Assembly (NCBI GenBank): GCA_015075075.1 | Contig: JABTVA010000004.1 | Location: 124,001-188,000, forward strand | From: Deltaproteobacteria bacterium | Lineage (GTDB): Bacteria > Desulfobacterota > GWC2-55-46 | Length of the DNA: 64,000 nucleotides | Direction: 5' to 3' | Part shown: positions 12,317-58,044 of the stretch, in pieces | Numbering within the stretch: the stretch's first letter is position 1 | How the letters are laid out: each line of letters opens with the position of its first letter | Translations under genes and position numbers: made by a program | The notes under the pieces: generated by a model | What the model was told of the DNA's origin: nothing | The model's database searches: none | The model's input: the letters and a program-made list of their open reading frames with translations, nothing else

Positions 12317-12392
12317 GGGCCCATAGCTCAGTTGGAAGAGCCACCGGCTCATAACCGGTCGGTCCCTGGTTCGAGTCCAGGTGGGCCCACCA
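12317..12392 (+). tRNA. tRNA with CAU anticodon (elongator Met or Ile2)
   Basis: A 76-nt cloverleaf with encoded CCA. The acceptor arm GGGCCCA pairs with TGGGCCC. The anticodon arm is ACCGG-CTCATAA-CCGGT with anticodon CAT, and the T arm is CCTGG-TTCGAGT-CCAGG. The first pair is G-C, so it is not the initiator type with a mismatched end. CAU tRNAs include elongator methionine and the lysidine-modified isoleucine tRNA, and I cannot separate them by eye. The zinc-ribbon gene starts 25 bases downstream. Confidence 0.95.
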
Positions 12393-14057: not shown

Positions 14058-14427
14058 AGGAGGCTGCCGGGCGGCCGCCGGCCTTCGGGCCGGAGGAAAG
14101 TCCGGACACCACAGGGCAGGGAGGTCGCTAACGGCGACCGGGGGCGACCCCAGGGACAAGGGCCACAGAAAAGATACCGCCGCCCGAAAGGGCGGTAAGG
14201 GTGAAAAGGCGGGGTAAGAGCCCACCAGCCTGCCGGGCGACCGGCAGGGCTTGGCAACCCCCTCCCGGTGCAAGGCCAAATAGGTTCCGCATCAAGGACT
14301 GCCCGTCCTTTTCCTTCGGGAGGGCGGAACGGGTTGGCCGCTCGAGCCTGCCGGCAACGGCAGGCCTAGACGAATGGCCGCCGCCCGGTTTTACCGGGAA
14401 CAGAATCCGGCTTACGGCAGCCTCCGG
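14058..14427 (+). ncRNA. rnpB: RNase P RNA, class A
   Basis: About 370 nt. Helix P1 pairs GGAGGCTGCCG (14059-14069) with CGGCAGCCTCC (14415-14425). Conserved core blocks are in order: GAGGAAAGTCCGGAC, ACAGGGCAG, AGATACCGCC, GGGTGAAAAGGCGG, GGTAAGAGCCCACCAG and GAACAGAATCCGGCTTACGG. The RNA is the catalytic subunit that trims 5' leaders from pre-tRNA. A run of seven T at about 14430-14436 follows P1 and probably ends transcription. The protein subunit gene is not in the window. Confidence 0.97.
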
Positions 14428-14736
14428 CGTTTTTTTCCAAATAAGGTATTCTGGATTTAATGCACTTGAACAAGGGAGAGGTACGGCACGCGTTCGCTCC
14501 GAATCCGGCAGTCCTGCCCCGTTCTTAAAGGGATTTAATCAGCCGCGCCCCCGTGGTTTAATAAACCGGCCTTAATCTCTCCGAGAGTCTCCCATTTCCC
14601 GTAGATGTTTTTCCGTGACCCCGGTCACGGGCATTACAGGCGATTTGTGTTTTTTTAGCGCGCCAGGGCATCGGCTCTCTCGACGCGGCCCGCCGGCATT
14701 GCGGCGCGTTTTCCTTCCATCCGTGGGCGGTCGGAC
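14428..14736. other. Gap between rnpB and the cyclase gene
   Basis: Apart from the T run just after rnpB and a small hairpin CGTGACC/GGTCACG near 14612-14628, I see no gene, repeat copy or recognisable RNA in these 309 bases. Confidence 0.4.
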
Positions 14737-42719: not shown

Positions 42720-42862
42720 TGCATCCTCTAAAAATTGATCTTTTCCCCGGACTCTGCGTCAGGCCGTTAATAAAAATGCTCACATATTGTCTTATATGCT
42801 CCGCTTTTTATTCCCGGCCTTCCGGGAAAAGCGGGAAAAATCTCTAATTTTTAGAGGCTGCA
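42720..42862. mobile_element. MITE copy M4, inserted in an ATGA stop/start overlap
   Basis: A 143-bp element with ends TGCATCCTCTAAAAATT and AATTTTTAGAGGCTGCA. It is flanked by the 4-bp duplication ATGA (42716-42719 and 42863-42866). The left ATGA holds the stop of the upstream cytochrome and the right ATGA holds the start of the downstream one. The end AGAGG lies five bases before that ATG. Confidence 0.88.
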
Positions 42863-47320: not shown

Positions 47321-47462
47321 GGCAACCTCTAAAAATTGATATTTTCCCCGGACTCTGTGTCAGGCCGTGAATAAAAATGCTCACATATTGTCATCTATGC
47401 TCCGCTTTTTATTCCCGGTCTTCCTTGATTGCGGGAAAAATCTCTAATTTTTAGAGATTGTC
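47321..47462. mobile_element. MITE copy M5, between yajC and secD
   Basis: A 142-bp element starting GGCAACCTCTAAAAATTGAT two bases after the yajC stop and ending AATTTTTAGAGATTGTC. The centre has CCCCGGACTCTGTGTCAGGC and ATAAAAATGCTCACATATTG, as in the other copies. Flanking bases AGCT and AGTA agree only partly, so the target duplication has drifted. Confidence 0.85.
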
Positions 47463-50517: not shown

Positions 50518-52070
50518 ATGGAAAACAAGGACTGCATCCCGAAGGTCCTGCCGCCCCTGGACCTGTCCGGCTGGCGCGAATTCCAGAACGGGCTATCGTC
50601 CCTGCTGGCATGCCGCTCTCCTCCATGATTCCGGGGCGCTGCTCGTCCGCCCGCCTGGGGAGCCGTGCGCAGGTCGATAGCCGGAAGCCGCGGGCGCCGA
50701 GCTATCTCGGCAGCGATAGCCTGCAATCAGCGAGGCGCGCTGAGAAGAAGAGCGTCCATATCCATAAATGCCACGCCAACAATTACATCTTCGGGATCCC
50801 GGTACTGCTCGATTCCGGCCACTCGTTCGTGATACTCGGGGGCCGCACCTATCTTAAGGGGACCGAGATACGGGATTTCTACGAAGGGGTGATGGGCTAC
50901 GGCCTGGACGAGCAGGCCGTATTCGGGCTCCGGCAGGAGATAAACCCTGTCCCGCCCGGTTCGATATTCATGGTCCCGGCCATCGTGAACGGCATGGCGG
51001 CGCCGTTTCTGAGGTGTGTCGTGACGTCCGCAGGCTCCTGCCTCGGCGAGCCCGCCCCCGTGGGCCTCAAGGGCTTCAAGGCGCTCGAGGAGGTGTACAA
51101 GTCGCTCGCGCCGGTCCTGGACAGGGAGGAGCTCTACGAGACGATACTCGCGAAATCGTCCGAGCTCGTGGGCGCCGACAGGGGCTCGCTCATGATACTC
51201 GACAAGAAAAACAACGTCCTTTCGGTCAAGGCCGCCAGGGGCATGGACTTTAAGGCGGTCGAGAACCTTAAGATAAAGGTCGGGGAGGGGATCTCGGGCG
51301 CAATCGCCGCAAAGGGTATGCCGGTCTTCGTAAGGGACATCGAAAGAGAGGTGCCGGCCTGGAAGAACAGGCCGAGGTACAAGACGAAGTCCTTCATATC
51401 CATCCCGCTCATGCTGGAGCGGAAGGTGATAGGCGTCCTGAACGTCTCCGACAAGACTTCCGGCGCGGTCTTCTCCGAGGAGGACCTCCACCTCCTCACC
51501 TCGTTCGCCAACTACGCCTCCATAGCGCTCGAGCGCGGAGCGTACTACAGCATGAGCGAGGAATTGAAGATGCTCTCCATGACCGACCCGCTCACCGGCC
51601 TTTTCAACAGGAGGTACTTCAGGGAAAGGCTCTTCGAGGAGGTCGAGAGGGTAAAGAGGCACAACGAGTGCTTCACTTCCTTTGTTATAGACATAGACAA
51701 CTTTAAGACCTTTAACGACAGGTACGGCCACCTCGCCGGGGACGAGGTCCTGAAGGGGGTCGCGAGGGCCATAAGGGACGCGGTCAGGTCAATGGACGTG
51801 GTCGCGCGCTACGGGGGCGAGGAGTTCGCGGTCATACTGCCCCACACGAACAAGAAGGACGCCTATGTCATCGCCGAGAGGATACGGAGGGGCGTGCAGG
51901 ACTACAGGCCGCCTAACGCCGACCACGACGTATGGCCTACGATAAGCCTGGGGGTCGCGGAGTTCCCGGTGGACGCGAGCCACATAGACGACCTCATAAA
52001 CAAGGCCGACAAGGCCATGTATCTCGCAAAGAGGATGGGAAAGAACAAGGTTGTCGTTTATGAAAGATAA
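50518..52070 (+). CDS. PocR-GAF-GGDEF diguanylate cyclase, indels in first 200 bases
   Basis: From about 50750 the frame is intact. The PocR-type sensor (HKCHANNYIFGIPVLLDSGH, ILGGRTYLKGTEI) is followed by a GAF domain (LGADRGSLMIL-like LVGADRGSLMILDKKNNVL) and a GGDEF domain with RYGGEEFAVILP. The I-site RSMD lies five residues before GGEEF, so product inhibition is likely. Before 50750 the PocR start can be read across frames (MENKDCIPKVLPPLDLSGW, then LLVRPPGEP), so indels lie there. It makes c-di-GMP from GTP. It overlaps the ATPase gene by 11 bases. Confidence 0.9.
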
Positions 52071-54273
52071 GACGCTTTTCAGCACCTGCCCGGACGGCGA
52101 GTTCTTCGGCAGGGCTTCCGAGATTGAATATATCTGCGGGAGGGCCGGTGCCGCCCTGCCGGCGCCCGCCATATTCCTCTTCGGCAGGCGCTGGACCGGG
52201 AAGACAGAGGTCCTCCGGAGGGTCTTCAGGAACCTCTTCTGGGGGCAGGCCAGGGTCGTGCCCCTGTATTACCAGTTCAGGGGAGGGCGGCCCGGGGAGG
52301 AGTTCGCAGAGGACTACCTTAAAGAGGTGCTTAAGCAGTACCTGGCGTTCAGGCTCCGTGATTCAAGGCTCGTAAGGAACGAGCTAACGCTCGATAAAAT
52401 CGAGAGCCTGCTCGTCGACAACGACCTCTACGACCTCGCCGACCTCGCTGCCGTCCACCGGGAGGCGAAAAAGGCCGGTGACGAGACCGCGGCCCTGAGG
52501 AATGCCCTCCAGGCGCCGACGGCCGTATCGGCCCGCTCAGGGATCCCGGTCTACCTCATCCTCGACGACCTTGACCGCGCGGTCTCGGGCGCAGGGCAGA
52601 ACGAGGCCAGGCTGGCCAGGGAACTTATGGACTCGCTCGGGCCGTCTTCGTTCGTGGCCTCGGCTTCGGCAAGGCGGCTCATCGAAGGAGGCGTCTTTAA
52701 CGGCCCGGCTGAGGCCATCGAACTCGAAGGCCTCGACGAGGAGACCGCATCTTCAATGATGATGGACCTCTGCCGCCTCTACGGGGTGGGGTTCGACGCG
52801 GAGATAGTGAAGCTCGGGGCCCACAGGCTCGACGGCAACCCCATGTACATGAGGAACCTCGTCTGGGCCGCGTCAAAGGCCGGCACCGGGCTTACGACGC
52901 TCAAGGACTTCGCCGACATATATACGCAGGAGCTATTTGAGGGCAATACCGGGTTTGCGCTGAAATCCGCACTGGGTCTACGGGGCATCAATGCCCTCCG
53001 CGTGCTGCATGCCTGCTCAATCGCCAGGAAACCCCTAACGAGCGAGGAACTCTCGGAAAGGTTCAGGCAGGGCGAATCCGAGCTCGATTCCATCATAAGA
53101 ACACTTTCGGCCGCCGGCCTCCTCGAGGCGAGCCTCGGGTCGCTCAAATGGACCGGGGACGCGGCAGTAAAGGACTTCGTTTATTTCGCCTACGAGACGA
53201 GGGTCAAGGGCAGGTCAACGGAAGAGGTGCGGACTTACCTCGCTCGGGAGGTCTTGAAGGAGGGGTTCAACTTCAGGAGCTCCAAGATAGCGGTCAATCC
53301 TCAGGACGAGGTCTCAGAGGCCCTCAAGTCGTTTAACGGCCAGAAGTCCCGGAAGGTCCTTTTCAGCCATCAGGCCTTTGCCGCCCGGTTCCAGAAAGGG
53401 GCGCAGAAGGCCGGGGCAGTGGATGACGGAGAGCTTGCCTTCCCGCAGGTCGTGGGCTGCTTCGATTCCGAACGGCTCGAGGCCAATGAAGCGGGCCCTC
53501 CGATAATCGTGGCCCACGGGTTCCAGAACGGCAGGTACGATTCCGGGAACGAGGTGGTCTGGATGGCCGCGGTAAAGGACTCGGTCTCGCCGGTGAACAT
53601 CGGGGACGTCGAGAACTTCCTCAGGAGGTCCCAGATACTCAGGGAGAACTTCAGGGCAGCCAGGGTCGTCAGGTGGATAGTATCCAGGGAGGGCTTCACT
53701 GCTGAGGCGCTCAAGCGGGCCGAGGCGGAGGGCGTCCTCTCTTCCGATTCCGTGCAGCTTAAGATTATAAGGGAAAACCTTGAGAGCAGGGGCAAGGGCG
53801 CCGGGGCAGCTGAGATAAACGGGATAGCGCCGGTCAAGGAATTCGAGGTCGTCCTGCCCTCGGCCTCAAAGGCCGAGCTCGTCGCCGCGAGGGCCGTCGA
53901 GGAGATAGGCACCGAGATGGGCTTTGACGATGCCGCCATAGGGCAGATAAAGGCCGCCCTCGTCGAGGCTTGCATAAACGCCTTCGAGCACAGCAGGGTC
54001 AGGACGGCGAAGGTGTACCTGAAATTCGCGGCCTCGGCAAAGAGGCTAACCATCCACGTCCAGAACGGCGGGGTGGACTTCGACAGCCTCTCCGAGGCGG
54101 CATCGGCCCCTGCCGAGGCTGGAAAGCTCCCCAAAAAGCGCGGCTGGGGCTTCGAGCTCATGAAGGGGCTCATGGATGAAGTAAGGGTCGAAAAGGTCCG
54201 GGGCGGGGCCAAGGTCGTCCTGGTGAAGTACCTTGTCAGAAAAGGAGACGGCGGGAATGGTCAAGAGATATAG
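52060..54273 (+). CDS. AAA/STAND-like ATPase fused to an anti-sigma-type histidine-kinase-like domain
   Basis: A 737-residue protein. Residues about 15-300 are a P-loop ATPase with Walker A GRRWTGKT (42-49) and Walker B VYLILDDLD (164-172). A winged-helix-like part near 310-390 (LTSEELSERFRQGESELDSI) and a middle region near 400-580 follow. The C-terminal 130 residues are a GHKL ATPase of the RsbW/SpoIIAB kind: N-box E636..N640 (EACINAFEHS) and G-box GWGFELMKGLMDEV near 695. Such kinases phosphorylate STAS antagonists, and a STAS gene starts inside its last codons. I do not know a described protein with this layout. Confidence 0.88.
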   Translation: MKDKTLFSTCPDGEFFGRASEIEYICGRAGAALPAPAIFLFGRRWTGKTEVLRRVFRNLFWGQARVVPLYYQFRGGRPGEEFAEDYLKEVLKQYLAFRLRDSRLVRNELTLDKIESLLVDNDLYDLADLAAVHREAKKAGDETAALRNALQAPTAVSARSGIPVYLILDDLDRAVSGAGQNEARLARELMDSLGPSSFVASASARRLIEGGVFNGPAEAIELEGLDEETASSMMMDLCRLYGVGFDAEIVKLGAHRLDGNPMYMRNLVWAASKAGTGLTTLKDFADIYTQELFEGNTGFALKSALGLRGINALRVLHACSIARKPLTSEELSERFRQGESELDSIIRTLSAAGLLEASLGSLKWTGDAAVKDFVYFAYETRVKGRSTEEVRTYLAREVLKEGFNFRSSKIAVNPQDEVSEALKSFNGQKSRKVLFSHQAFAARFQKGAQKAGAVDDGELAFPQVVGCFDSERLEANEAGPPIIVAHGFQNGRYDSGNEVVWMAAVKDSVSPVNIGDVENFLRRSQILRENFRAARVVRWIVSREGFTAEALKRAEAEGVLSSDSVQLKIIRENLESRGKGAGAAEINGIAPVKEFEVVLPSASKAELVAARAVEEIGTEMGFDDAAIGQIKAALVEACINAFEHSRVRTAKVYLKFAASAKRLTIHVQNGGVDFDSLSEAASAPAEAGKLPKKRGWGFELMKGLMDEVRVEKVRGGAKVVLVKYLVRKGDGGNGQEI

Positions 54274-54625
54274 GAACTTCAAGGAGCTTGGCGATACGGT
54301 CGTCCTGTATCCCGACGACTACATAAACGATATCGAGGGGGAGAAGCTCGAAGACCTCTGCGCAAATTACCTCGACCGGGGATTCAGGAAGATAGTCGTG
54401 GACTTCTCGGAGACCGAGCTCGTCAACTCAATAGGCGTGTCCATACTGATAGGGGTGATAGAGAAGGTCAGGGAAAGGGACGCGAACATCTACTTCTCGG
54501 GCTTGAAGCGCGTGAACTACGACATATTCAGCATAGTGGGGCTAACCAAGCACATCAGGATATTCGAGACCGAAGAGGATGCCCTCGGCATTGGTCCCAA
54601 GACGGCGGGCCAGGCGGTCCTGTGA
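54257..54625 (+). CDS. STAS-domain protein (anti-sigma antagonist type)
   Basis: A 122-residue single STAS domain. KIVVDFSETELVNSIGVSIL near residue 45 is the central strand-helix motif, and S58 in NSIGV stands at the usual phosphorylation site. The protein ends in a tail of about 12 residues. It overlaps the end of the ATPase-kinase gene by 17 bases and has GGAG before the ATG, so it is the natural substrate of that kinase domain by context. A MITE follows immediately. Confidence 0.92.
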   Translation: MVKRYRNFKELGDTVVLYPDDYINDIEGEKLEDLCANYLDRGFRKIVVDFSETELVNSIGVSILIGVIEKVRERDANIYFSGLKRVNYDIFSIVGLTKHIRIFETEEDALGIGPKTAGQAVL

Positions 54626-54749
54626 TGAAAATTGATCTTTTCCCCGGACTCTGTGTCAGGCCGGGAATAAAAATGCTCACATATTGCTTATATGCTCCGC
54701 TTTTTATTCCCGGCCTTCCTTGATTGCGGGGAAAATCTCTAATTTTCAT
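54626..54749. mobile_element. MITE copy M6, after the STAS gene
   Basis: Begins ATGAAAATTGATCTTTTCCC next to the STAS stop and ends AATCTCTAATTTTCAT. The central arms GGCCGGGAATAAAAA and TTTTTATTCCCGGCC pair perfectly. The outer ends differ from the consensus (ATGAAAATT in place of TCTAAAAATT) but still match each other. It separates STAS from the GAF-HD-GYP gene by about 160 bases in total. Confidence 0.82.
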
Positions 54750-54787
54750 AGCTTTCATGAATAAACACCAACCCCCCGGAGGTATGG

Positions 54788-56200
54788 ATGTCTGAGACCG
54801 AACTGAGCCTCGAAAGGCTCCTCTTCAACCTTAACACCCTTGCCGAGCTCGGGGAAGAGATAACTTCCCCGAAGGACTTCACGCGCGTGGTGAAGTCCTC
54901 CCTCTACATGGTCATGGGCACGTTCTCGTCGTCCAAGGGGGCCATATTCCAGCACGAGAACGGGAACGGCTCCTACATACCGATCGCGTCCAAGGGCCTT
55001 GGCGACATAGGCGGCCTGAGGCTCAAGCTCGCCCCGGAGACCATAGCCGAGCTCTTGAAGCGCAGGGAGCCGGTCGAGCTCGGGGGCGGCAAGGACGCAG
55101 GTTTCCTCGGCGCCGCAGGGGAAACACTCGAAAAGATCGACGCGAAGGTCCTGGCCTGCCTGACGGTAAAGGACGAGCTATTGGGCCTCATAGCCATAAA
55201 CGGGAAGTTCTCCGGGGAGCCCTTCACGCTCTACGACCACCAGCTCCTTTCGGTCATGTCCCAGCACATATCGTTCTCGCTCCACAGCCATTCGCTTCTC
55301 ATGAAGCTCATGCACAAGTACACCGAGAACAAGGGCCTCTACGAGAACCTGAGGCGCATATACTACGACACCATACACGCGTTCGCCGCAGCCATCGACG
55401 CCAAGGACTCGTACACGAGGGGCCATTCCCACAGGGTCTCGGCCTACAGCGCCGCGCTCGCGCGCGAGATGGGCTGGTCCAACGAGGAGGTGGAAGGCAT
55501 AAGGATAGCCGGGCTCCTCCACGACATCGGGAAGATAACCGTCGATAAGACCATAATAAACAAGGCCAGCCCCCTTACGAGCTACGAGTGCAGGGAACTC
55601 AACTCCCACCCGGTCATAGGCTACGAGATACTCTCGAAGATAAAGTTCCCCTGGAAGGGCATACCCATGATGACAAGGAACCACCACGAAAAGGTGGACG
55701 GCACAGGGTATCCCGACAGGCTCAGGAAATCCGAGATACCGATAGGCGCCCGGATAATGGCGCTGGTCGACGCCTTCGACGCAATGACCACTGACAGGCC
55801 CTACAGGCCCAAGCTCTCCTTCAAGGAGGCGATATGCGAGGTCAGGGAGAACTGGAACAGGCAGTTCGACCCCGAGGTGATACAACCCTTCATATCGGTC
55901 ATCAGGAAGGAAGTGAGGAGGGAGGCGGACAACCCCACCATAGTGCCGCTCCTTCAGGAAGAGCTGGACGCAGTGTCGCTTAACAGGATCCTCGAAGGGT
56001 TCCCCGGGCCTAGATCAGCGTCGCGCCCCTGCCGGTGGATCAGCAGGGTGTTGAAAAACACCTGCCAGGCAATCCACGGATGGATTGCCGAATTGCAGAG
56101 ACTATGCGGCCTGAATAAAAACGGAGTTTTTTCATCAAGCTGCAAAAGGCCGAACCAAAATCCCCGCACTCTCCGCGAAGCTGCACATATCGTCCGTTAA
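54788..56200 (+). CDS. GAF-HD-GYP c-di-GMP phosphodiesterase with repeat-derived tail
   Basis: A 470-residue protein. Residues about 10-180 are a GAF-like sensor, and residues about 200-400 are an HD-GYP domain with RGHSHRVSAYS, LLHDIGK (H245, D246), NSHPVIGYEIL, HHEKVDGTGYP (GYP at 307-309) and DAFDAMTTDRPYRP. All HD-GYP landmarks are present, so it should hydrolyse c-di-GMP. From about residue 420 the frame runs through a copy of hairpin repeat R3 (CQAIHGWIAEL), so the last 50 residues are probably not ancestral. GGAGG precedes the ATG. It counters the GGDEF protein of the same block. Confidence 0.92.
   Translation: MSETELSLERLLFNLNTLAELGEEITSPKDFTRVVKSSLYMVMGTFSSSKGAIFQHENGNGSYIPIASKGLGDIGGLRLKLAPETIAELLKRREPVELGGGKDAGFLGAAGETLEKIDAKVLACLTVKDELLGLIAINGKFSGEPFTLYDHQLLSVMSQHISFSLHSHSLLMKLMHKYTENKGLYENLRRIYYDTIHAFAAAIDAKDSYTRGHSHRVSAYSAALAREMGWSNEEVEGIRIAGLLHDIGKITVDKTIINKASPLTSYECRELNSHPVIGYEILSKIKFPWKGIPMMTRNHHEKVDGTGYPDRLRKSEIPIGARIMALVDAFDAMTTDRPYRPKLSFKEAICEVRENWNRQFDPEVIQPFISVIRKEVRREADNPTIVPLLQEELDAVSLNRILEGFPGPRSASRPCRWISRVLKNTCQAIHGWIAELQRLCGLNKNGVFSSSCKRPNQNPRTLREAAHIVR
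56046..56107 (-). repeat. Hairpin repeat R3, copy 2, inside the HD-GYP reading frame
   Basis: Inverse match to 13912-13967. It has the hairpin GCAATCCA-CGGA-TGGATTGC (56069-56088) and beside it GGTGTT-GAAA-AACACC (56047-56062). It forms the 3' end of the upstream CDS. Confidence 0.75.
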
Positions 56201-56348
56201 CAGGACATCCCCCCTACACACAGATGGATTTCGGCGCGGCCTCAGTCCTTTTGACGGGCGTTCCTTTCCTGACCTTTGCTCCTTTTGAAAGTAAAATGGT
56301 CTCCGACCGACCCGTTTACTTATTTTCGGACAGGGTGAAGATTGATTG

Positions 56349-58044
56349 ATGCTCGGAAGACGGTGGAAAATCAGCCCGGCTAACAGGGAACTGCAGGAGC
56401 GGCTGGGCAGGAAATTGAACATACTGCCCCTTACGGCGCAGCTTCTCGTAAACAGGGGCGCTGTCGACGCGGACAAGGCCTTTTCTTTCTAAGCCGGACC
56501 TCGCCTCCCTCCACGACCCCATGCTCATGAAAGGCATGGACAGGGCCGTCGAGCGCATAGCCCGCGGCTTCGCGAGAGGGAAAGATTACCGTCTACGGCG
56601 ACTACGACGTCGACGGCGCGACCTCGACGGCCCTTCTTCCTCTTTCTCCGCGGAAATAGGGCGGACGCCGCCACGTACATACCGAGAGGCTCTCCGAGGG
56701 TACGGCCTGAACCCCGAGGCCGTGAAGAAGCTCGCCGCCTCGGGCTGCCGCCTCGTCATAACCGTGGACTGCGGCTCATCGAACAGGGCCGAGGTGGAAC
56801 TGGCAAACTCGCTCGGCATTGACGTCATCGTGACCGACCACCATGAAATGCCCAAGGACGCGCCTCCCGCGCTCGCGGTCCTCAATCCAGGCCAGGAGAG
56901 TTGCCGTTTCCCTTTCAAAGGGCTCGAGGGTGGGTGTCGCATTCAACCTCGCGCTTGCGCTCCAGGCATATCTCCGCGAGACGGGTGGTTCAGGAAGGCG
57001 ACCGAACCTCAAGAGGTACTCGACCTCGTGGCCCTGGGGACGGTAGCGGACCTCGTCCCGCTCTATGTGACGAGAACCGCGTTTTCGTGCACTACGGCGT
57101 CGAAGGCTCGAGGCGATGAAGAGCCGTTGGGCTTAAGGCCCCGGAGGGGCCGGGCTCAAGGGCGGCAGCTCTCCGCAAGCCACATCGCCCTTCAGATGGC
57201 AGCCGAGGCTCAATGCCGCCGGGAGGATATCGACCGCGGACACGGCGCTCAGGCTCCCTTACGACCGAAAGCCCGGAAGAGGCCTCGGCCCTGCGGCTGC
57301 CCTCGAAAAAGAACTCCTCGCGCCAGAGATAGAGGCCGAGACCCTGGAGGAGGCCCTCTCCATGCCTCGAAGGGCACAGGGACAGGGGCATAGTCCTACT
57401 CAGAGCGCTGGCATCCGGGCGTCATAGGCATAGTCGCGTCCCGTCTCGTGGACAGGTTCTCGAGGCCCGCGGTCCTCATAGCCCTTGAGAACGGTGTGGG
57501 CAAGGGCTCGGCCAGGAGCATACGCTCCTTCAACATCCTCGAGGGGCTCAAGGGCTGCGCTGTCCTCCTCGAACGCTTCGGCGGGCACAAGGCAGCGGCG
57601 GGCCTGACCGTCTCCGGCGGGATGGTCGAGGCCTTCAGAAAAGAGTTTATCAGGCAGGTGAACGGCGCCCTTACGGACGAGGACCTCGTATACGAGGTTA
57701 CGCTCGACGCGGTCGTCTCCCTCGAGGAAGTGGGCAGGAGGCTCGTCTCCGAGATAGAGAGCCTGGCCCCGTTCGGCGCCTCCAACCACGAGCCGCTCCT
57801 GTGCCTGCCCGACACGCACATAGTGGAAACCGAAGTCGTGGGCGCAAGGCACCTGAAGTTCAAGGTGAAGCATAACGGGCGCCTCCAGCGCGGCATAGGG
57901 TTCGGGCTCGCCGGCCTCCACCCGGTGCAGGGAAAGGGCTACGGCATAGCTTTTTCGCCCTACATGGACGAATGGCAGGGCAATACGAGCTTGAGGCTGC
58001 GGATAAAGGACGTCAAGCAGGGCTTTGTAAATCCCTTGACATGA
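56349..58044 (+). CDS. recJ: Single-strand-specific 5'-3' exonuclease RecJ, heavily frameshifted
   Basis: Pieces across all three frames follow the RecJ order. MLGRRWKISPANRELQERLG is at the start and DYDV-type YGDYDVDGAT can be read near 56600. VKKLAASGCRLVITVDCGSSN and DVIVTDHHEMPKDAPPALAVLNPG (DHH motif) lie at 56720-56890, then FNLALALQAYLRE near 56945 and VLDLVALGTVADLVPL near 57018. The C-terminal part from 57448 is intact (FGGHKAAAGLTV is the DHHA1 motif). Ten or so indels lie in 56480-57440. RecJ acts in recombination and mismatch repair. The gene is probably whole in the organism. Confidence 0.87.

Follow-up and report, generated by a model that had tools for sequence, protein, structure and literature searches.

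A four-gene cassette for c-di-GMP turnover

Within the 64,000-nucleotide stretch of DNA analysed here (the window), four genes follow one another on the forward strand, encoding a PocR-GAF-GGDEF diguanylate cyclase, a large fusion protein, a STAS protein of the anti-sigma-factor-antagonist type and a GAF-HD-GYP phosphodiesterase (Table 1). A preliminary description of this DNA had placed these genes in line with the first three overlapping, and the open reading frame (ORF) coordinates bear this out, the cyclase and fusion genes sharing exactly 11 bases and the fusion and STAS genes exactly 17. Domains were called by Pfam profile matches: GGDEF (7e-51) and GAF_2 (3e-20) in the cyclase ORF, HATPase_c_2 (1.3e-16) in the fusion, STAS (6e-12) in the third protein and HD_5 (4e-38) in the fourth all lie above their cut-offs, and AAA_16 in the fusion (5e-7, 30.9 bits) falls slightly below its cut-off of 32.6 bits. 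Elsewhere the window carries a bacterial RNase P class A RNA (14059-14429) and a tRNA (12317-12389). The DNA belongs to an uncultured lineage that was deposited as Deltaproteobacteria and shares its genus with UBA5799 (G004/L075).

Table 1. Positions in the window of the cassette genes and of the domains and motifs that they encode.
Feature	Position	Strand	Basis or remark
PocR-GAF-GGDEF diguanylate cyclase gene	50518..52070	+	Start via orthology; open frame from 50448
I-site RSMD and active-site GGEEF of cyclase	51786..51827	+	Orthologue motif count
Fusion gene, 737 aa (AAA+ ATPase, winged helix, nuclease-like fold, GHKL)	52060..54273	+	
AAA+ ATPase part, residues 14-177 by Pfam, fold continuing to about 300	52099..52590	+	AAA_16, ATPase_2, Foldseek
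Walker A, GRRWTGKTE	52183-52209	+	Within AAA+ part
Winged-helix segment, residues about 310-365	52987..53154	+	Weak MarR_2, Rrf2 and HTH_20 matches; secondary structure
Restriction-endonuclease-like fold, residues about 463-576	53446..53787	+	Foldseek; without catalytic D...(D/E)xK acids
GHKL domain, RsbW/SpoIIAB-like, residues about 593-726	53836..54237	+	Pfam, profile matches, Foldseek
N-box E636-A-C-I-N640, catalytic-base and Mg positions	53965..53979	+	Invariant in alignment A1
G1-box Asn669 (AAC), replacing adenine-contacting Asp	54064..54066	+	Alignment against SpoIIAB Asp
G2-box R694-G-W-G697	54139..54150	+	Alignment A1
STAS gene, 122 aa, anti-sigma-factor-antagonist type	54257..54625	+	
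Ser58 codon, NSIG motif	54428..54430	+	Aligned to SpoIIAA
GAF-HD-GYP phosphodiesterase gene	54788..56200	+	Conserved to about 56008; ORF tail beyond not conserved

The cyclase had been credited with an active GGEEF and an I-site and the HD-GYP protein with a full motif set, and their orthologues agree: the R-x-x-D I-site plus GGEEF is present in 30/30 cyclase orthologues, and HD plus GYP (HHExxDGxGYP) in all 24 domain-complete HD-GYP orthologues, with both of the latter also found in the window. The cyclase start at ATG 50518 was assigned by orthology with L055, the closest relative of the window (94% identity), which served as our reference for indels; the frame from this ATG stops within 40 codons. 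Relative to L055, small indels cluster at 50608-50740 in this assembly and disturb the PocR part of the cyclase; intact cyclase relatives match PocR at up to 3e-18. A second cluster (56161-57397) runs from the end of the HD-GYP gene through recJ, splitting recJ into several ORFs, and the HD-GYP ORF beyond about 56008 is dissimilar to its 408-residue relatives. The indels in both clusters are of 1-4 bases each, and a compensating pair lies within the fusion gene (53298/53302). We read the clusters as probable assembly errors, given that the cassette is otherwise intact and that the genes are whole in relatives; real decay is another possibility.

A palindromic repeat of about 128 bases occupies the region between the STAS and HD-GYP genes (54622-54765), with further copies in the window at 42731-42851 and 47332-47459. 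At least 40 copies are present in the genome at 87-100% identity (149 first-look candidates, of which 40 were scored), and the copy between the two genes folds far better than its shuffles (z -8.1). The 162-base STAS/HD-GYP gap is similar in L055 and absent in most relatives, so the repeat, which looks like a mobile or REP-type element, appears to have been inserted recently.

Architecture of the fusion protein

The second gene had been described as a fusion of a P-loop ATPase to a GHKL kinase domain; both of these parts are confirmed, but a winged helix and a nuclease-like fold that lie between them had been overlooked. Foldseek searches with the AlphaFold model (mean pLDDT 81) match the N-terminal part to the archaeal ATPase_2 proteins 2qen and 2fna, to Cdc6/Orc1 and to CED-4. 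The Walker B motif of this part is LILDD, ending in D169 and D170, and these two residues, together with G47, K48 and T49 of Walker A, are invariant in an alignment of 26 fusions (alignment A1). The C-terminal part matches RsbW (6m36, TM-score to target 0.92-0.94) and SpoIIAB by predicted fold, and RsbW and SpoIIAB are also its best profile matches.

Modelled separately, the middle domain retrieves the nuclease folds MspJI, EndoMS, AF1548 and Cdn1, several nuclease families at probabilities of 0.97-1.00, with weak scores throughout (best E 6e-4, for MspJI, and low TM-scores). A sequence-profile search of the PDB with this domain gave nothing usable, returning only designed barrels and a weak hypothetical protein. 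In the window and its orthologues strand 3 reads A-V-K or similar and strand 2 bears no acidic residue; with the catalytic D and (D/E)xK acids missing, we reject the reading as an active PD-(D/E)XK nuclease.

Residue S58 of the STAS protein, previously proposed to stand at the phosphorylation position, aligns with S58 of SpoIIAA. The serine is kept (NSIG) in 26/27 STAS orthologues, the remaining one having threonine (NTVG).

Conservation across the class

All 63 genomes of our class sample were searched, and 33 carry the fusion, in a single copy each (genomes with a contig break inside the fusion show it as two pieces). A STAS orthologue (E<1e-30) accompanies it in 32 of these 33, all but G053, where the contig ends, and occurs in none of the 30 fusion-less genomes, one of which (G049) has a distant STAS at 2e-6. 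The complete order GGDEF-fusion-STAS-HD-GYP is found in the window and in 23 further class genomes and is never contradicted where contigs reach. The cassette is flanked by secDF and recJ in the family of the window and in family f7; its flanks differ in families f4, f10, f11 and f12 with the order unchanged, and the 11-base overlap of the cyclase and fusion genes recurs at most class loci. With gene order fixed in 23 further genomes, the arrangement is far beyond chance, and the four genes are one fixed, co-inherited unit in this uncultured bacterial class. The linkage proposed from a single locus thus extends across the class: genomes that bear the fusion have it linked to GGDEF, STAS and HD-GYP genes in essentially every case, and within the class it was not found unlinked from them. 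No PADLOC model matched the fusion or the STAS protein and a plasmid search returned no match, on which grounds we reject the readings of a defence system and of a plasmid-borne element.

An altered G1 box in the GHKL domain

In alignment A1 Glu636 and Asn640 of the N-box and the glycines of the G2 box are invariant, as is Asn669. The G1 box of the window protein is N-G-G-V-D instead of D-x-G-x-G with its adenine-contacting Asp. All GGDEF-linked fusion orthologues have Asn here; the canonical Asp is found in distant fusions (L106-L116, 24-28% identity) and in 35 standalone GHKL relatives. An apparent Asp-type G1 in the class fusion L072 proved to be an artefact of the V-S-D-D pattern, A1 showing Asn. 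The Asn-type fusions form one clade (support 97/86) in a GHKL tree; since this tree is rooted arbitrarily, it gives no answer on a single origin of the fusion.

Gene neighbourhood follows the same division. Asn-type loci have a GGDEF gene upstream, with one exception (L089), which has none in the 1.9 kb of upstream sequence present on its contig. Where the upstream region of an Asp-type locus can be read (L106, L108-L114), it contains no GGDEF gene; the order is fusion-STAS-HD-GYP, with HD-GYP usually the neighbour, although in a few of these loci STAS or HD-GYP went undetected. This association of Asn with GGDEF is suggestive only, since it represents at most one evolutionary event. In L109, L110, L112 and L113 the Asp-type fusion-STAS-HD-GYP sets divergently adjoin a gene of about 830 residues, which in L109 encodes a radical SAM protein (Radical_SAM_N2 plus DUF2344).

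The substitution removes a normally essential ATP-contacting residue, and the GHKL domain may therefore not be an ordinary kinase. VanS proteins with the same Asp-to-Asn change bind ATP very weakly and show no preference for GTP (PMC10017428). That paper cites two further cases. In ThkA a G1 Asn still contacts and hydrogen-bonds adenine, and a histidine kinase carrying the substitution reportedly depends on GTP (Scaramozzino 2009, cited in PMC10017428). For the fusion, conservation of the N-box speaks for continued binding of some nucleotide.

Phosphatase and sigma partners

Neither SpoIIE (PF07228) nor PP2C_2 (PF13672) has a match in the genome, which is about 93% complete, and a canonical partner switch is thus incomplete in it. 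Of the 33 class genomes with the fusion, 30 likewise lack SpoIIE; it is present in G035, G038 and G042. A SpoIIE gene of G035 has a separate RsbW-like domain some 5 kb away, which suggests that this genome has an independent system. SpoIIE is also lacking in 11 of the 12 genomes that carry the distant fusions L104 and L106-L116. L104 is Asn-type and the other distant fusions are Asp-type, so absence of the phosphatase does not track Asn, and we rejected the idea that phosphatase loss accompanies the Asp-to-Asn change. From the class and distant genomes together, the fusion family seems to do without the phosphatase by which canonical partner switching is defined, barring one that went unrecognised. 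No sigma gene was found in the cassette at any class locus read; eight sigma-70-type region-2 matches lie elsewhere in the genome. The assignment of an RsbW-like GHKL domain therefore stands by sequence and by fold, but the further suggestion of an active anti-sigma kinase working in a partner switch of the usual kind is not supported in that form, given the G1 Asn, the absence of SpoIIE and PP2C_2 from the genome and the absence of a sigma gene from the cassette.

Standalone relatives of the GHKL domain

STAS is the next gene in 34 of the 35 standalone relatives. A class III adenylate/guanylate cyclase directly follows STAS in 15/35 (Bacteroidota, one Marinimicrobia and one gammaproteobacterial bin; L124, L126, L128-L131, L133, L134, L138, L140 and L143-L147), and a GGDEF gene follows it, directly or one gene later, in 2/35 (Sericytochromatia-like bins). 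The GHKL-STAS pair thus repeatedly adjoins second-messenger enzymes. Among other cases sampled, the gene after STAS is SpoIIE (Poribacteria, Acidobacteriota and Gemmatimonadota) or ExbBD (Marinimicrobia). In five Marinimicrobia loci (L118, L120, L122, L142 and L151) a series of small ExbB/ExbD-type genes comes next after GHKL-STAS, the type having been assigned by Pfam for L118.

A proposed mechanism and its alternatives

We lean towards reading the locus as a self-contained c-di-GMP control cassette, in which the STAS protein would be held by the fusion and would tune the cyclase or the HD-GYP enzyme. The PocR-GAF-GGDEF protein would make c-di-GMP and the HD-GYP protein would break it down. 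STAS would be the mobile regulator: held by the GHKL domain and, once free, able to bind and tune the linked cyclase (or the HD-GYP enzyme), by analogy with SiaC and HsbA. The AAA+, winged-helix and nuclease-like part may gate this holding by sensing a signal, either nucleotide state or possibly nucleic acid, and the kinase activity of the GHKL domain would be weak, altered or lost. The fusion is then probably an AAA+-gated STAS-binding protein, with a weak or nucleotide-shifted kinase, that steers the linked cyclase. Since distant fusions (L106, L108-L114) lack GGDEF and usually neighbour HD-GYP, the target may originally have been HD-GYP or have lain outside the cassette; co-inheritance of the cassette genes is in any case no proof of physical interaction.

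The role assigned to the GHKL domain is where other readings depart from this one. It might be a nucleotide-free pseudokinase that clamps STAS constitutively, all switching coming from the AAA+ domain. The fixed Asp-to-Asn change, the very weak ATP binding of VanS and a genome without SpoIIE or PP2C_2 to reset STAS are consistent with such a clamp, but E636, N640 and the G2 glycines would have been expected to decay had nucleotide binding been lost, and Asp-bearing relatives lack SpoIIE too (11/12 genomes); we regard it as unlikely. Also unlikely, in our judgement, is a canonical partner switch, in which the GHKL domain would be both an ATP-dependent kinase of S58 and an anti-sigma factor, the c-di-GMP genes being merely co-expressed. 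Its best profile matches, the invariant N-box Glu and Asn and G2 box, the near-universal S58 and the sigma-70-type matches elsewhere in the genome all suit that role, and the ThkA example, as cited in PMC10017428, indicates that a G1 Asn can still hydrogen-bond adenine; against it stand the Asn found throughout the GGDEF-linked group, the missing SpoIIE and PP2C_2, and cassettes with no sigma gene at the loci read.

The Asp-to-Asn change might instead have retuned the domain to use GTP in place of ATP when phosphorylating (or releasing) STAS, which we hold to be quite improbable. If true, the cassette would read GTP, the substrate of the cyclase, and would constitute a GTP-sensing partner switch for c-di-GMP production. 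We consider very unlikely a nucleic-acid or stress sensor, whose winged-helix and inactive nuclease-like parts would bind DNA or RNA and so switch on STAS phosphorylation. CapK-CapS offers a precedent, as a GHKL-STAS pair activated by ssDNA (PMC13373217), and the middle domain is nuclease-like while the AAA+ part resembles Cdc6/Orc1-type ATPases. The fold match of the middle domain is weak, however (best E 6e-4, low TM-score), no PADLOC model matched, no toxin or immune operon is adjacent and the c-di-GMP linkage points elsewhere.

Comparison with known systems

The preliminary description could match the ATPase fusion within a c-di-GMP block to no described system. A STAS/GHKL switch coupled to a diguanylate cyclase has already been described (PMC8457831, PMC5085249), and experiments have established that STAS-type proteins control cyclases in the pairs SiaC-SiaD, HsbA-HsbD and BgrV-BgrR (PMC8457831, PMC5085249). 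The fused protein and the four-gene unit are, as far as we found, undescribed: within the open-licence literature searched, no example came to light of an AAA ATPase joined to an RsbW-like domain together with STAS/GGDEF.

SiaABCD of Pseudomonas aeruginosa resembles the cassette in that a kinase acting on the STAS-like SiaC controls the diguanylate cyclase of the same cluster (PMC8457831, PMC7647112). There, however, SiaC is a DUF1987 protein whose phosphorylation site is Thr68, the kinase SiaB is small and stands alone, and the PP2C phosphatase SiaA belongs to the cluster, whereas here the GHKL domain is fused to AAA+, winged-helix and nuclease-like parts, SpoIIE and PP2C_2 were not found and an HD-GYP gene is included. 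In HptB-HsbR-HsbA/HsbD, a STAS protein with a phosphorylatable serine (S56) binds a diguanylate cyclase (PMC5085249); there, a phosphorelay feeds HsbR, a response regulator that has both phosphatase and kinase functions (PMC5085249), and no such components were found here. BgrSTUWV-BgrR of Sinorhizobium meliloti, as cited in PMC8457831, is a partner-switching set controlling a diguanylate cyclase through the STAS protein BgrV; it differs as a separate multi-gene partner switch, for which that citing account mentions no AAA+ fusion.

RsbW/RsbV and SpoIIAB/SpoIIAA have in common with our pair the GHKL fold, the N-box, the G2 box and a STAS partner with S58. The cassette departs from them in its G1 Asn for Asp, in a GHKL domain embedded in a 737-residue four-part fusion, and in lacking SpoIIE, PP2C_2 and an adjacent sigma gene. 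CapK-CapS and VapKSC likewise contain a GHKL-STAS pair, which controls an operon or toxin linked to it (PMC13373217), but CapK is HTH-STAS-GHKL, CapS is a STAS-wHTH repressor, and the effectors are immune operons or the VapC toxin rather than c-di-GMP enzymes (PMC13373217). The archaeal ATPase_2-type ATPases (2qen and 2fna) share an AAA+ core followed by a winged helix; they have no GHKL domain, and their TM-scores to target are only 0.57-0.64.

A G1 Asp-to-Asn change naturally fixed within a protein-serine-kinase family would make any effect of that change on nucleotide choice directly testable. Since the nearest relatives of the GHKL-STAS pair adjoin GGDEF or class III cyclase genes across several phyla, second-messenger switches of this sort may form a broader class. 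If our reading of the cassette is right, an AAA+ machine, not a phosphatase, would decide when STAS is free to act on c-di-GMP enzymes, and partner switching would extend past the kinase-plus-phosphatase scheme.
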